Positions 11,170-23,080 of a DNA stretch of 64,000 nucleotides are shown in pieces (within the stretch, counting starts at the first letter, position 1; each line of letters begins with the position of its first letter). The notes beneath the pieces are model-generated. The model ran no database searches, was not told the origin of the DNA, and saw only the letters and a list, made by a program, of their open reading frames with translations. The position numbers and the translations under genes are program-made. The DNA is from Mycoplasma suis str. Illinois. GTDB lineage: Bacteria; Bacillota_I; Bacilli_A; Mycoplasmatales; Mycoplasmoidaceae. The DNA lies in assembly GCF_000179035.2 (NCBI RefSeq), contig NC_015155.1, positions 310,001-374,000 of the forward strand, in the 5' to 3' direction.

Positions 11170-12386
11170 TTGGTAACTAAAGTAAAGTGAATTTGAGGTT
11201 TTACAGGAACTTTCGGCTCTCAAAGTGTTTTGATTCCAGTATTAATTTCTCAAGATTCTGGAATCAAAACAATTACAGTAGCTGGAAGTAGCTCTTTATT
11301 CGAGCCAGTTGAATCACTGAGTGATTCAATTAATTTAAGTTCAAATAAAAATGTTGTTTTAAGTGCCCTCCCTACTGGTTCTACTTGAGGGAGAGAGGCA
11401 CTAAAAAATAAACAAATAGATCTTTCTCTGTTATCGACAGAGAAAGAGAATTCGCTAGGTATTGGATTTATTTTGGAAAATTTTTTGAAAACCGTAACAA
11501 TATCTGAACATAAATTAGTTAGAGATCCAGTAGTTCTTCTTTATTCTTCTAGTGGTTGTGTAGCCCAAGGAATTAAGGAATTGGGAGAATATTATCGACA
11601 AAAATATGCAAAAGATATTTTTGCAGGGAAGGAAATAAAAAATGTAGATAAAGACCAACTAAAAGTTTGTTTACAAAATTTAGTTGGTTTTTCAAGAGAA
11701 GGAAATAATAAAAGATCAAGTATTAATAGAGCTTTAATTGGAAAGCAAGAAAAAGAATTTGATCACTTAAAGATTAGAGAAGTTCCGGAAAATAGTCACT
11801 TAGCTATAGATTTTTTAATAAGAGAATCATCAAATGATTCTCTAGTGTTAGTTCCAAATTCTTTTTATGAAGTGAATAAAGATTATTTAAAGAGTTTGGG
11901 GTTTGAAGCTATAGTATTTGAACATTATTCTCTGGAAAGAAAAATGAATTTCGGAATAGAAAAAGATGAAATTAAGAATAATCCTGAAAAACTATTGTGA
12001 GTTAATGATTTTTTAACTCACTATAAAAAATTAGAAAGTGATTTTCAGTTGGACACTACAGCAGCTTATTATGACCAAAATAGACAATGCATTAAGTATT
12101 ATGGTCTCTTAGATTCTCCTGTAGAAGTTAATACCATCACTGGGGGGGGCACTCTCCCTCTAATGCCCAAAAAAATAATATTGATGCCAAAAGTCAAGAA
12201 TCAAGAAATAATTCCCCAACTTTGGGCAAAAATCACTATATTAAGAGCTTTATATCTTCAATTCTTGCTTTCTCAGAATCGCAAGAATGAGGAAGATACT
12301 TGCCACTCAAAACTATTCTTAATTCCCTCAAGAAAGATAAATCCATTATCTCATCAGAATGCTTAATAGAACAAAGTGAATCATAG
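11170..12386 (+). CDS. PstS-like substrate-binding protein 1, with phase-variable G8 tract
   Basis: Exported binding protein resembling PstS: an N-terminal hydrophobic segment, then VAGSSSLFEPVESL (about residues 38-51) and ALPTGSTWGREAL, matching the GSS...and GSG-x-G phosphate-contact loops, then DLSLLST. TTG 11170 is the first start after the palindromic terminator. At 12142-12149 lies G8. As printed, the frame continues to TAA 12364-12366 with an atypical tail. One more G would give a Ser/Asn-rich tail with a hydrophobic helix ending at TAG 12384-12386. It is paralogous to the next gene. Phosphate as ligand is inferred from the fold signature only. Confidence 0.65.
12142..12149 (+). repeat. 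Homopolymer G8 in PstS-like gene 1
   Basis: Eight consecutive G near the 3' end of the coding region. G7 closes the frame within five codons; G8 gives the printed tail; G9 opens a different, more protein-like tail. Length change by slipped-strand replication would therefore alter the C-terminus. Confidence 0.75.
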
Positions 12387-13518
12387 GATTCACTTCTGTT
12401 TTTGGTTCTCAAGCTATTTTGATTCCAGTATTAAGCTCTAAAGACTCAGGGCTCTCAACAGTAACGCTAGCTGGAAGTAGCTCACTATTTGATCCCTTTG
12501 AGTCTTTAGTAGATGTAATTAAAGATCCTAAAGTATCAGTAAGTATATTGCCTACTGGTACAGCTTGAAGTAGAGAAGCATTAGATAAGAAACATATAGA
12601 TATGTCTCTTACTTCTACTAGAAGAAAGGAAAGTGAAGCTAATGTTCAAATTGGGAGAGGATCATCTGGTTTGTTCGGAATCTTTAATGATATAGGAAAT
12701 CTTTTTTCAGGAAGAAATCCAATAATTAAAAATTTTTGACAGCAAACTGGACCAATAAAAGAATGGAATTTAGTCACTGATCCAGTTGGATTTTTATATA
12801 CAGATTATTTAGGTTGTCCTAAAAATGGAGAAAGTTTAAAGAAATGAGAAGGAACTTATGAAGATGATGTTTTGTCCATTCTTTTTGGACTAAAAGAAAA
12901 AATAATGTTAGAACTAGATTTCCTTGTCAAGGTAAATGAGAGGGATTTTCTAGGGAAGGAAGAGATTCCAGATCCAGCGTTAATAAAACATTATTAACAA
13001 AAGTAAGTTCAGGGCAAGATAAAAGCTCCGATCACCTTAAATTCAGGGAAATCCCTGAAAGTAATTATGCAGCTATTGAATTTTTAGTGAGAGAAGCTCA
13101 CTCAAATTCTTTAATTCCTATTCCTGAATCCTTTTATAAAGCTAATGAAGAATATTTAAAAGGATTAGGATTCCATTATCTTTCTTCAAGTGTTTCAACT
13201 TTTAGTCTTTTTTCTTCTTCGGGACCTACAACTTCCTATAACAGACAATTGAAGTTTGAGGTGAATAAACAAGAGCTAGAAAAAGAAGAAAGCATTAATA
13301 AAAGAAAATGAATCAACGAAGCTTTAACTCAATATGAGAAATTTAATAAAGACTTCAAGTTAAATGTTGCAGCCTCTTTTTATGACGGAAATAAAGAATG
13401 TGATGTAAATAGAGGTAATTTATTGCTAGAATACAAAGGACGACCTCATGAAGTTCACGAAGTCACAGGAAAACCTGAAGAAGTTAAAAACTGTAATCAA
13501 TCAAACAAAAAGAATTAA
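12359..13518 (+). CDS. PstS-like substrate-binding protein 2, frameshifted at A6
   Basis: Paralogue of the preceding gene over its whole length: VTLAGSSSLFDPFESLV and ILPTGTAWSREALDKKHID correspond to the same phosphate-loop segments. ATG 12359 gives an N-terminus homologous to protein 1. The printed frame ends at TAA 12995-12997 with a non-homologous tail. Reading one extra A at the A6 run 12897-12902 restores homology (GFSREG, SSDHLKFREIPES, AAIEFLVREA) through to TAA 13516-13518. This may be a lesion, a phase-variable state, expression through slippage, or a base-calling error. It overlaps the end of gene 1. Confidence 0.65.
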
Positions 13519-13533
13519 TTTTTAATATCTCCT

Positions 13534-13542
13534 CCCCCCCCC
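13534..13542. repeat. Intergenic C9 tract
   Basis: Nine C residues 15 bp after the second PstS-like gene, flanked by ATATCTCCT and GAGAGGGGAGAAGGATAT, which can pair imperfectly. A hypermutable tract in a hairpin between convergent genes. Nothing else is recognisable between 13519 and 13641 apart from a C6 run near 13604. Confidence 0.6.
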
Positions 13543-13641
13543 GAGAGGGGAGAAGGATATACAAAAAAACTAAACCATTAAAAAATCCAAGAAGATTCTT
13601 TTAAACCCCCCTGAAGAAGGGGAAAAAGTTTTTCTACTAAA

Positions 13642-14516
13642 TTAAGGTAGAACTATTTTGTGAGCTCACTTAGGGAAAAGGTCATTGTGAGTCAATATTT
13701 GGGAAATTTGAAGACTTGAATCTAATACAAACTCTTGATTTGTGAATGTAACTTTAGAAATTATTTGCTTAATTTGCTTTTCAATTACTTTGTCAATATT
13801 AGGGATATTTGGATTTTTAGCCAATAGGCTTTCTCTTAATTTATTTTTTCTTGTTCTAGTCAGTTAGGGCAAACTTCTTCTTCGGTCAAGAACAAACAAT
13901 TAGATGCTGCATAATGCAGCACTAATTTTTTAATTTCAAAAATATTTTCTATATCAGTTTTTTCTCCTGTTTTTAGAGAAAGAATAGCTCCTAATTTGTT
14001 ATTGTGGTGAACATAAGAAAGGTTTAGGCACTTCTCTTCTGAAACAGGAGAAACTATTAATTCAGTTATCTTAATAGTTTCTTTAGTAATAGAGGAAAGG
14101 GAGGAAATTTTTTGTTCTACTGTAAGTTCATCTTTAGTTGACTGTAGTTTTAGGAATTCTTCCAAACTTAATGTTTTGTTTTCTCCTTTTTGTAGATAAT
14201 TTAGAAGAATATCAGCAATTTCAGAGGCAGTAGATTTAAAGTCAGCAGAGTTAGTTACGAAGTCTGTCTCAGCTCTCATGCAGAATAGAGCTGCAATTGA
14301 ATAATCTTCTGTATGTACTTGAAAAATCTTTCCTTCCGGAAGTTCAGAATCTCCTGAAGAAGTTGAACTAGAATGTTTAATACTTTTCTTGAAAAGTAAT
14401 CCTTTAGCTTTGTCATAGTCATACTTAGCTTCTTCTAAAGCTTTTAGGCATTCATTGAAAGGAGCCAAAGTCTCCTTTCTAAGTCTTACTAAAAACTTCT
14501 TTTTATCTCCTACCAT
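13642..14516 (-). CDS. tsf: Elongation factor Ts, requires -1 shift at A6
   Basis: Nucleotide exchange factor for EF-Tu. The N-terminal UBA-like part (VRLRKETLAPFNECLKALEE) and the core TDFV motif (RAETDFVTNSADF) are clear. The printed frame stops at 13836-13838 after about 226 residues. The homologous C-terminus (KNPNIPNIDKVIEKQI, then VTFTNQEFVLD) is in the -1 frame and ends at 13642-13644. The two join if the A6 run (complement of 13844-13849) is read as A7, giving about 291 residues, normal for EF-Ts. The protein is essential, so slippage or a sequencing error is more likely than loss. ATG 14516. Confidence 0.9.
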
Positions 14517-14551
14517 AAAAAACTACTTACTAATTAGAGTTTACTCTCTAA

Positions 14552-15135
14552 TTAAGAAGAGATTGGATCTTTTGATTCACTTTTAGTTGCTGCTGCTTTC
14601 TTGGAGAGAGGAACAAAAACACAAGAATATTGTGTTTTGTTAACTCCTTTTAGAGGTTCCATTGTCTTTCCGGCATCTTGTATTATTTCTTTAATTCTGC
14701 CGAGAAGGCTCTCAGCAATAGGAGATTTAAAGTTAGCAGTTTCAAAAGGAGTCTTAATAATTAATTGAACTCTATCTCCAGCTTCCAATCATTCTTTCAT
14801 TTTTTTAATTTTTCATTCTAAATCATGAGAGTCAATCTTCAATTTAAGGGCAATAGATTTCATCTTATTGCCCTTATTTTTTCTTTTTTAGAAGATTGAT
14901 ATTCTTGTTTCTTTTTTTCTTGTATGAAAGATTCGTAATTTACAAGCTTTACTACATGAGGACTAAGTGAACTATTAACTAGCATAAGATCTAGTCCTTT
15001 TTCCTCTGCTTTAGTAAACATCTCCTCTCAGGAGACGATACTAGAAGAGCCGTCTTCTTCTATTAATCTATATGTCTCTTCGTTAGTGTTTTCCCGTGTA
15101 AGTTGTTTTGGAAATTTTTTTCCTAGTTTCAGTAT
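14552..15135 (-). CDS. infC: Translation initiation factor IF-3, non-AUG start and -1 shift at A6
   Basis: IF-3 keeps 30S subunits free and rejects wrong start codons. The N-domain is recognisable from TRENTNEETYRLIEEDG to VKLVNYESF. The linker ends at KKEK, where the printed frame departs. The C-domain (SIALKLKIDSHDLEWKIKK, then WLEAGDRVQLIIK and CVFVPLSKK) is in the -1 frame. They join if the A6 run (complement of 14877-14882) is read as A7. No ATG, GTG or TTG precedes the N-domain; ATA 15135 (or the following CTG) is the likely start. ATG 14863 could start a free-standing C-domain of about 103 residues. Non-AUG starts on infC are a known autoregulatory feature in other bacteria. Confidence 0.88.
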
Positions 15136-15178
15136 TGAAGTAACTAAAAGATGAAGTTAAATAAAATCTTTTTTAGAA

Positions 15179-15216
15179 AGTTAAATTCTTTAGTTTGCTT
15201 ACTAAAGAATTTAACT
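15179..15216. terminator. 16-bp perfect hairpin between tRNA-Leu and infC
   Basis: Arms AGTTAAATTCTTTAGT and ACTAAAGAATTTAACT with a 6-nt loop. On the minus strand it lies between rpoE and infC and could attenuate or terminate read-through into infC. On the plus strand it is 17 bp ahead of the tRNA. Confidence 0.55.
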
Positions 15217-15233
15217 CTTCCTTTAATCGTTAC

Positions 15234-15321
15234 GCTCTTGTGGTGGAATTGGTAGACACGGTAGTCTCAAAAGCTACTGATACAGAATATCGTCTCAGTT
15301 CGAGTCTGAGCAAGAGCACCA
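15234..15321 (+). tRNA. tRNA-Leu (anticodon CAA)
   Basis: Class II tRNA of 88 nt with encoded CCA. Acceptor GCTCTTG pairs with CAAGAGC; the anticodon stem GTAGT/GCTAC closes the loop CTCAAAA with anticodon CAA; a long variable arm follows; the T arm CTCAG-TTCGAGT-CTGAG is perfect. It lies on the plus strand between two minus-strand genes. Confidence 0.95.
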
Positions 15322-15352
15322 GTTTATTAACTAACCCTTTTATTTAAGAAGA

Positions 15353-15856
15353 CTATTCGTAGTCTTCATCTTCGTCATCGTTAGATTTTCTACCACTACT
15401 GTATCCTTCTCCTTCGGAGTCAATTTCATCATTAATTGAATCTTCTTCACTTTCAGGAGAAACATTGTTGCTTTCAAGTTCTTCATCTTCAACAATTTCA
15501 TCTTCAGATTCATCTTCTTTCGGAGATGATTCTTCTACTGGATCTTCACCTTCTAGTTCCTTCTCGGAGAAGGAAATCTTTTGAGCTCTCTTACCCATAA
15601 TCTTTAGATATTCTGAATATTCCATATATTCTCTAAGTTTTCACATATTTTTTCCAACATATACAAATCTCGGGTCACTTAATAATTCCATATAAAAAGG
15701 ACCAATTCAGTTTTCAATACTGTCTTTTTTAAAATCTTTAGCTTTCATTCATGTCTTATTTCAAAGAGCTTGAAAATTAAAACTTTGTTGACCAAAATTT
15801 TCTATAGCTACTTCATTAGCTATATTGATTAAATCTCTTAGATTTAATTTAGTCAT
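15353..15856 (-). CDS. rpoE: DNA-directed RNA polymerase delta subunit
   Basis: A 167-residue RpoE/delta homologue. The N-terminal winged-helix (HARE-HTH) domain, about residues 1-85, contains LRDLINIANEVA and ends in the conserved GKNMWKLREY pattern. The remaining half is strongly acidic (runs of Asp and Glu), as in Gram-positive delta, which displaces nucleic acid from RNA polymerase. ATG 15856 is preceded by AGGTAAG. In firmicutes the gene is a standalone small subunit; here it lies between the HD gene and the tRNA-Leu/infC region on the minus strand. Confidence 0.92.
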
Positions 15857-15902
15857 TTTTTCTTACCTTTTCTTTTATTTTAACTTAATTTTTCAAGTTT
15901 AA

Positions 15903-17176
15903 TCAATTATTATGGTGTTTTTTAGTCATTAAAACAAAGTGTATTTCTCTCTCTTCTTGGAATGGGAAACTTAATTCAAGATCTTTAAAAGTTTTTGAAC
16001 TTAAGTCAAAATAACTTAATTTTTGAATTTTTTGAACTGCCTTATGACTTATTAGAGAAGAAATTCTTTTTGTTTGTAGAATCTCTTCTTCTTTAATAAT
16101 GTCAGGACATTCAAGTGAAAATTTACTGAATTTTTCAAATTCTTCTTGCTGCATTCTTACTAGAACATGATTACTTTCTTCAGAGTTACCTCTGAAGAGT
16201 AATAAAAGAGAATATAGTGAATTAGAAATAGAAGATGGATTAGATTTTTTATCTCTCAAAACAATTCATCTAATTTTGAGAGAATAGTATAGTCTTTCAA
16301 ATTAATAAATTCTTCTACTTTTATTTCCTCTAGTGTTTTTTCAAAAAGAGGTAATAAGAGTTCATAATTCGCATTATTCACAAATTCAGAGTTAAAAATC
16401 TTTTTTCATTCTTGAAATATCGCAAACAATATTACTTGATAAGAACAAGCAGAGGGATTTGAATAAACTTCCCTCTGCATATATTCTCTAGCTAATAGAA
16501 GAGAATATCTCTGATAATTAGTTTTTTGCAAAAAAGCTAACTTTCTTTGACCATTTAATTTAAGTAGTCTAGTTCACTTAATTATTAGACTAGGATCTAT
16601 TGAGAGAGTGAAACTTCCGCAGAAGTATCTATCTCTCAATAGATAATCTAGTCTATCTACATCTATATCTGAAGAAATTAATTCTTCTATTCATTTTCTC
16701 TCACTCTTTCTAGATAAAATATTTACTATTTCTTCAGCAAAGAAGGAGTCTTCTTTGCCATGAACTCTAGATCTTTCAACTAAGAGAAGATTTAACTTAG
16801 AGTTTTTATTAAGAATTATTCTTTTTGTCATTTCTTCATGAGAGAAATTAGGGAAGAGTCACTCGAAAAAATGTGAAAAAGGACCATGCCCTAAGTCATG
16901 CAGGAGGGCACTAGCGAGAGCTAAGTCAATTTCTAATTGATCATCTTTCAGATTTAGATCTCCCAGAGAAAGAAAGTGGGAGATAAATTTAGAAGTTAAA
17001 GCATAAACACCCAGAGAATGAGAAAGTCTAGAGTGAGTAGCTCCTGGAAAGTTTTCATGCAAAAAACCTAATTGACTTATTGAAGATAGTCTTTGAAACT
17101 CCTGAGTATTTAAAAGTCCGTATAGTCAAAAGGAGTAGCCTTCAAAAATGATCTCACCATGTATGGGATCTTTTAT
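15903..17176 (-). CDS. HD-domain phosphohydrolase, AUA start and -1 shift at A6
   Basis: Metal-dependent phosphohydrolase of the dNTPase-like HD family. N-terminal DPIHGEI and TQEFQRL, then PGATHSRLSHSLGVY with the first metal His, and LLHDLGHGPFSH with the HD pair, are all conserved. Metal ligands are present. No ATG, GTG or TTG precedes these motifs after the in-frame TAA; ATA 17176 gives the usual N-terminus (Lys-Asp-Pro-Ile-His-Gly). The frame changes at A6 (complement of 16245-16250): reading A7 joins the long N-terminal frame to the C-terminal 120 residues ending at 15903. Nucleotide substrate is unknown. Confidence 0.85.
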
Positions 17177-17251
17177 GAACGGTCAACCCCCAGAAACTGG
17201 GAGTTCTAGGTGGGGTTTAGAAAAGAAAAGAATACCTAATTATCTAAGTAT

Positions 17252-22099: not shown

Positions 22100-23080
22100 T
22101 TAACTATTCAATACCTTTAGTATTTCTTTGGCAATTGCGAAAATAACAGGAACAGTTACTGAATTCCCAAATTGCTTGTAAGCTTGATTATCGCTAACAG
22201 GTATTAAAAAGTTATCTGGAAATCCCTGAAGTCTTGCCGCCTCACGAGGAGTTAATTTCCTAGGATTTTTATTTTTTTGTTCTATGAGGATTTCACTACC
22301 ATCCTTATAGTATCTAGCTGAAATAGTATTTGTGTAACTACTATTTTCACTAAAAAGGGAGAAACCAAATCCTCTCCCTTTTAGTTTGTGCTCTTCTTTT
22401 CTTCTTTTATGACCTTCTCATAAAAGATCAGAGATAGTATATTTATTATTTACTTCCTTTTCTAGTATGTCTCCCACACATGTAGCTTTTAGTGTGGGAG
22501 AAGGCATACTAAAGTTTTCGTAGGATTCAACTAAATCTTTATTGAATCCTACTATGTATATTCTTTCTCGATTTTGGGGTATTCCAAAATCTCTAGATTT
22601 AAGAACTTTATAAGTTATGTGATAATTCAAATCTTTTAAATGTTGTTCAATAACTTTTAAAGTTTCTCCTTTATTGTGAGTTCTTAAATTTTTTACATTT
22701 TCCAATAAAAAAGTCTTAGGCTTTTTATCCTTTAATATTCTTATTATTTCAAAGAAAAGAGCTCCTCTCTCATCTTCAAAACCTTTCTTTTTTCCTGCCT
22801 GACTAAAAGCTTGGCAGGGAAAACCAGCTACTAGAATATCATGATTCGGAATATCTTCTGAATTTATTTCTCTGATATCCCCTAAAGGTTCATCAGAGAA
22901 ATTAGATTTGTAAGTTTTCTTAGCAAACTTGTCTATTTCACTACTAAATACTACCTTAACTTCTCCAGTTAGGTGGAATCCTAATCTTGTCCCACCTATT
23001 CCTGCGAATAGGTCAATCATCCTGTATTTAGAATTTTCATTATTGGGGAATGGAGCTTCATTCCCTTCCTTATATCCCAT
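22100..23080 (-). CDS. C5 cytosine-specific DNA methyltransferase (orphan)
   Basis: A 326-residue type II m5C methyltransferase. Motif [14 protein letters not shown] (about residues 23-35) binds SAM; motif [13 protein letters not shown] holds the catalytic Cys; ENV (motif VI), [14 protein letters not shown] (motif VIII) and the C-terminal GNSVTVPVI (motif X) are all present, so it should be active. The target recognition domain between VIII and IX gives no clear specificity. No restriction endonuclease is adjacent. ATG 23080 is followed upstream by a perfect AT-rich palindrome. It is convergent with hsdS2. Confidence 0.93.

Follow-up and report, generated by a model that had tools for sequence, protein, structure and literature searches.

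The window analysed here is a stretch of 64,000 nt (positions 310001-374000) of the single 742,431-bp contig of Mycoplasma suis strain Illinois, a blood parasite of pigs whose genome uses TGA as a tryptophan codon (genetic code 4). Four genes within it each present as two overlapping same-strand code-4 frames, the second at -1 relative to the first. Their frames, together with the A6 tracts (in mRNA sense) at which the frames had been predicted to part, are as follows, in window coordinates:

12368..12994, + strand: PstS-like 2 (PBP-like lipoprotein paralogue), upstream frame, a code-4 ORF; residues 2-170 match the neighbouring paralogue at 43%
12823..13515, + strand: PstS-like 2, downstream (-1) frame; residues 35-216 match the neighbouring paralogue at 38%
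12897..12902, + strand: A6 of PstS-like 2, zero frame GAA AAA ATA, within the break interval
13839..14516, - strand: tsf (EF-Ts), upstream frame; Pfam EF_TS positions 2-136
13645..13863, - strand: tsf, downstream (-1) frame, the C-terminal ~68 aa; Pfam EF_TS positions 150-191, 71% identical to M. parvum
13844..13849, - strand: A6 (mRNA sense) at the tsf break, zero frame GAA AAA ATA; frame-aware localisation of width 0
14821..15156, - strand: infC (IF-3), upstream frame, N-terminal domain; Pfam IF3_N
14555..14887, - strand: infC, downstream (-1) frame, C-terminal domain; Pfam IF3_C, 73% identical to M. parvum
14877..14882, - strand: A6 (mRNA sense) at the infC break, zero frame GAA AAA ATA, with an 11-bp hairpin directly 3'
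16163..17239, - strand: HD-domain (phosphohydrolase-type) gene, upstream frame; Pfam HD, 87% identical to M. parvum
15888..16301, - strand: HD-domain gene, downstream (-1) frame; aligns to the M. parvum protein's C-terminus at 61% identity
16245..16250, - strand: A6 (mRNA sense) at the HD-gene break, zero frame ATA AAA AAT

Read directly from the sequence, all four predicted tracts are in place, the context said to be common to three of them (GAAAAAATAA) is found at three of the four, and the direction is as uniform as had been claimed, with every break one base short. The accompanying claim that homologous sequence continues at -1 from the A6 itself holds for tsf, infC and the HD gene, where alignment to M. 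parvum identifies the C-terminal ~100 aa in the -1 frame. For PstS-like 2, whose two frames align to residues 1-148 and 163-321 of the neighbouring paralogue, the break can be bracketed to ~47 nt (about 12878-12925) covered by no alignment, so that the A6 at 12897 falls within the bracketed stretch and is a plausible break site, but is not pinned. We regard the original observation as holding for three of the genes and as likely to hold for PstS-like 2.

Two neighbouring features are recorded alongside these genes. The infC hairpin (window 14807-14882, 11 bp with one bulge) overlaps the ATG that starts the IF-3 C-terminal domain, and part of its inner stem is retained in M. parvum. Between tRNA-Leu and the HD gene lies an acid-tailed ORF (15356-15862) that by eye resembles an RNA polymerase delta subunit (RpoE, HARE-HTH), and for which a Pfam search returned no match.

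A search for EF_TS in 29 genomes, M. suis included, gave a one-piece match in 27 and no match in one fragmentary genome; M. suis alone was split into two pieces in different frames. In all six other genomes of the genus examined, tsf, infC and the HD gene each occupy one stop-free frame, with no conserved frame break for any of the three. The closest relative also lacks a longer A run at the positions homologous to the tsf and infC tracts (GAAAAAAG and GAGAAAAAT), and given this and the single frames in six relatives, the break is not a conserved programmed site. The same relative does carry an in-frame A7 at the site homologous to a further M. suis break, at genome position 299145. The original prediction held that each gene has one A too few; its direction stands, and since the closest relative has no longer A run at infC or tsf, seven A's are the likeliest original state, not a proven one.

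We surveyed M. suis genes against those of M. parvum strain Indiana in both directions with frame-aware localisation. A frame break was found in 12 of the 387 M. suis genes conserved with M. parvum, and in eight of the 12 it falls at a run of exactly six A's or T's. Of these eight, seven are one base short (genome coordinates 299145, tsf 323844, infC 324877, HD 326245, 380224, 418204 and 718357), while the eighth, at a T6 in a quinolinate/nicotinate phosphoribosyltransferase-type gene (288017), is one base long. Two more lie in G9 (250323) and G10 (659014) tracts of DUF31 peptidase genes, and the last two are weak or due to a break in the M. parvum query. The break at 299145 is lost under the stricter overlap rule of a three-genome comparison and is kept here from the M. 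suis/M. parvum survey. Chance alone would put an A/T run of at least six in 0.84 of the 12 localisation windows, against the eight observed (P about 1e-6); in intact genes, such a run is the longest in 5-8% of random localisation windows.

In the reverse direction the pattern disappears: M. parvum shows three breaks in 415 genes, none of them at runs of six or more, although it has twice as many A7/T7 runs as M. suis (Fisher P = 0.003 per gene, 0.0003 per A7/T7 tract). M. ovis has one single-base-short break, at an A8, in addition to a methyltransferase-like gene broken twice. These genomes differ in how they were sequenced. M. suis Illinois was sequenced in 2011 by GS-FLX Titanium (454) only, on a quarter plate; the average read was 140 nt long, the mean coverage was 38.6 and one gap was closed by Sanger sequencing (PMC3091866); on that account it is a pyrosequenced genome uncorrected by another chemistry. 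M. parvum strain Indiana was sequenced by Illumina at 1000x (PMC3869333), and M. ovis likewise by Illumina (PMC3907730). Among 454 errors, miscalled homopolymer length predominates, and it becomes commoner as runs lengthen (PMC4719071).

The original prediction had left three explanations open, namely slippage restoring the frame, recent lesions and under-called homopolymers. A 454-only genome, an excess of breaks at six-nucleotide A/T runs and the absence of this class from M. parvum together favour the last of these, and we put the probability at about 0.85 that the A6 tracts are homopolymer undercalls in the M. suis assembly, the true runs being A7. On this account the genomic runs would really be seven long, 454 would have called seven A's or T's as six, and intact tsf, infC, HD and PstS-like 2 genes would thereby appear broken. 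Set beside the roughly 353 coding A7/T7 tracts that are intact, the seven breaks would correspond to an undercall rate of ~2%. Against undercalling, no A8/T8 run was seen undercalled in the M. suis survey, although its coding set holds only about 40 of them.

Some features of the breaks fit less comfortably with undercalling. The break at 288017 is a gain of a base and not a loss. The predicted cluster of four sites within 3.4 kb is borne out in part, in that a span of 2.4 kb contains three of the seven short breaks (P = 0.0035 when compared with random A7/T7 tracts, a post hoc test), but four more are found elsewhere in the genome. TAA directly follows four of the six A6 sites (P about 0.0005-0.001, also post hoc). 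Neither the cluster nor the TAA context follows from random undercalling. If the runs were undercalled, the cluster would stem from weak local read coverage or flow context, and our guess is that low local read depth combined with context-dependent flow errors explains both the cluster and the TAA context.

It is worth noting that a genome-wide homopolymer spectrum was considered as a further measure of undercalling and dropped. A/T runs of at least seven are fewer in M. suis than in M. parvum, but intact coding genes are equally depleted, and the spectrum difference therefore says little about error; it more likely reflects base composition.

The same survey bears on the possibility that these are real, recent one-base deletions in a pig-passaged strain, with no rescue. 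The PstS-like and HD genes would then have been lost, and the others tolerated in truncated or split form, for example with the IF-3 domains made separately. A reduced genome under relaxed selection offers room for this, DNA polymerase slippage likewise favours homopolymers, and an in-frame ATG just past the infC break begins the IF-3 C-terminal domain. However, tsf and infC are expected to be essential, each gene carries a single lesion, and in these two the part after the break is conserved as well as the part before it (71 vs 66% identity to M. parvum for tsf, 73 vs 52% for infC). Other lesions are also nearly absent, with few in-frame stops and two weak non-homopolymer shifts in the survey gene set; stops were counted on a clean gene set, as counts over all ORFs are swamped by antisense shadow ORFs. 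Finally, the class is missing from Illumina-sequenced M. parvum despite its more numerous A7/T7 runs. We consider genuine deletions improbable.

A second alternative accepts the A6 as real and has the ribosome slip by -1 at AAA, restoring the frame and yielding full-length EF-Ts, IF-3 and HD protein, with a slow AUA codon following AAA at three of the four sites. The uniform direction at all four sites, the zero-frame GAA AAA ATA at three of them and the TAA described above are in its favour, as are the strong hairpin right after the infC tract (z -3.75) and the genetic background: hemoplasmas lack ribosomal protein L9, a limiter of slippage (PMC4014445), and a tmRNA gene was not found in the suis clade (PMC4131195). 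Against this, GAAAAAATAA in the codon phase it has in tsf, infC and PstS-like 2 is found 25 times in M. suis genes that are intact and show homology to either side of it, where a strong slip site would harm the gene, and GAA AAA ATA occurs 53 times under the same definition. With a zero frame of GAA AAA ATA, no tandem slippery heptamer of the form X XXY YYZ is found at tsf, infC or PstS-like 2, and the A-site AUA fails to re-pair in the -1 frame at these three sites; A AAA AAT is read at the HD site only. Downstream RNA structure in 60-nt windows is not significantly enriched at eight sites relative to windows at 1474 control tracts (P = 0.17), and the sites are unconserved in relatives. Ribosomal rescue of the four genes is very improbable in our estimation, and we would attach equally little weight to its more specific form, in which a hemoplasma lacking L9 and tmRNA makes EF-Ts and IF-3 by efficient -1 slippage at AAA-AUA or AAA-stop contexts. 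Among the titles and abstracts that a literature search returned, no proteomics paper on full-length M. suis EF-Ts turned up.

Rescue could also act on the message, with RNA polymerase slipping on A6 so that a fraction of transcripts gains an A, as in Buchnera and Blochmannia. The homopolymeric sites and the AT-rich, reduced genome speak for such a process, and there is an endosymbiont precedent, with 12-50% of transcripts corrected at long poly(A) runs (PMC5009743). The runs in the assembly are six nucleotides long, however, whereas known slip sites are usually at least 8-9 nt (PMC3711429, PMC5009743), the cut-off in PMC3711429 being at least 8 nt. There are moreover 936 A6 runs in conserved coding genes, and the longer intact coding runs (290 A7 and 37 A8) would slip more, spoiling their own messages. 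This makes transcriptional slippage the least probable of the explanations considered. Of the three options first left open, then, undercalling is the one we favour, while slippage of either kind finds no support in these comparisons.

The choice between these readings matters for how the reference genome is used. Were the breaks real, translation factors that are essential would themselves have to be made through recoding. If they are artefacts, the reference record probably truncates seven or more conserved genes, including tsf and infC, and inferences of gene loss or pseudogenes drawn from it may be affected. One example is pncB, described as frameshifted in the M. suis genome paper (PMC3091866): the phosphoribosyltransferase-type gene broken at 288017 is probably this gene, and the claim of its inactivation may also rest on a homopolymer error.

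Two further observations concern breaks and tracts of other kinds. Three hemoplasma genomes show a sharp, separate excess of G/C runs of about eight nucleotides (171, 90 and 142 runs of at least seven), of which the window offers examples at 12143-12150 and, as a C run, near 13533-13542. About half or more of these runs lie inside ORFs, some sit in hairpins, and C/A and then A often come next. By their sequence they look like candidate phase-variable (contingency) tracts, and such G tracts contain the M. suis breaks at 250323 (G9) and 659014 (G10). Separately, the gene at window 22103-23080, the product of which resembles a DNA methyltransferase on inspection by eye, has no break in M. suis, whereas its M. 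parvum counterpart is frame-broken at 466712 and its M. ovis counterpart at both 142768 and 143026; in these Illumina-sequenced genomes the breaks would be genuine decay.

Set against known systems, the M. suis breaks resemble 454 miscalls in being single-base changes at A/T homopolymers of conserved genes, mostly with one base lost, in a 454-only genome, and depart from them in that the clustering and the TAA context are stronger than random miscalls would give. With the transcriptional rescue of Buchnera and Blochmannia they share a reduced, AT-rich genome and breaks at A runs in conserved genes, but the M. suis runs are only six nucleotides long, are unconserved in relatives and are known from the genome sequence alone. 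An A-rich site and the -1 direction recall programmed ribosomal frameshifting of the dnaX type; unlike dnaX, the M. suis sites lack both an A AAA AAG heptamer and conserved stimulators and are not themselves conserved, and products from both frames are not expected for tsf or infC. A further parallel is with the singleton frameshift genes of GeneTack (PMC3711429), which are likewise frame transitions supported by homology and seen in one genome only; we find no essential difference from these, and the GeneTack authors expected singleton frameshifts to be sequencing errors (PMC3711429).
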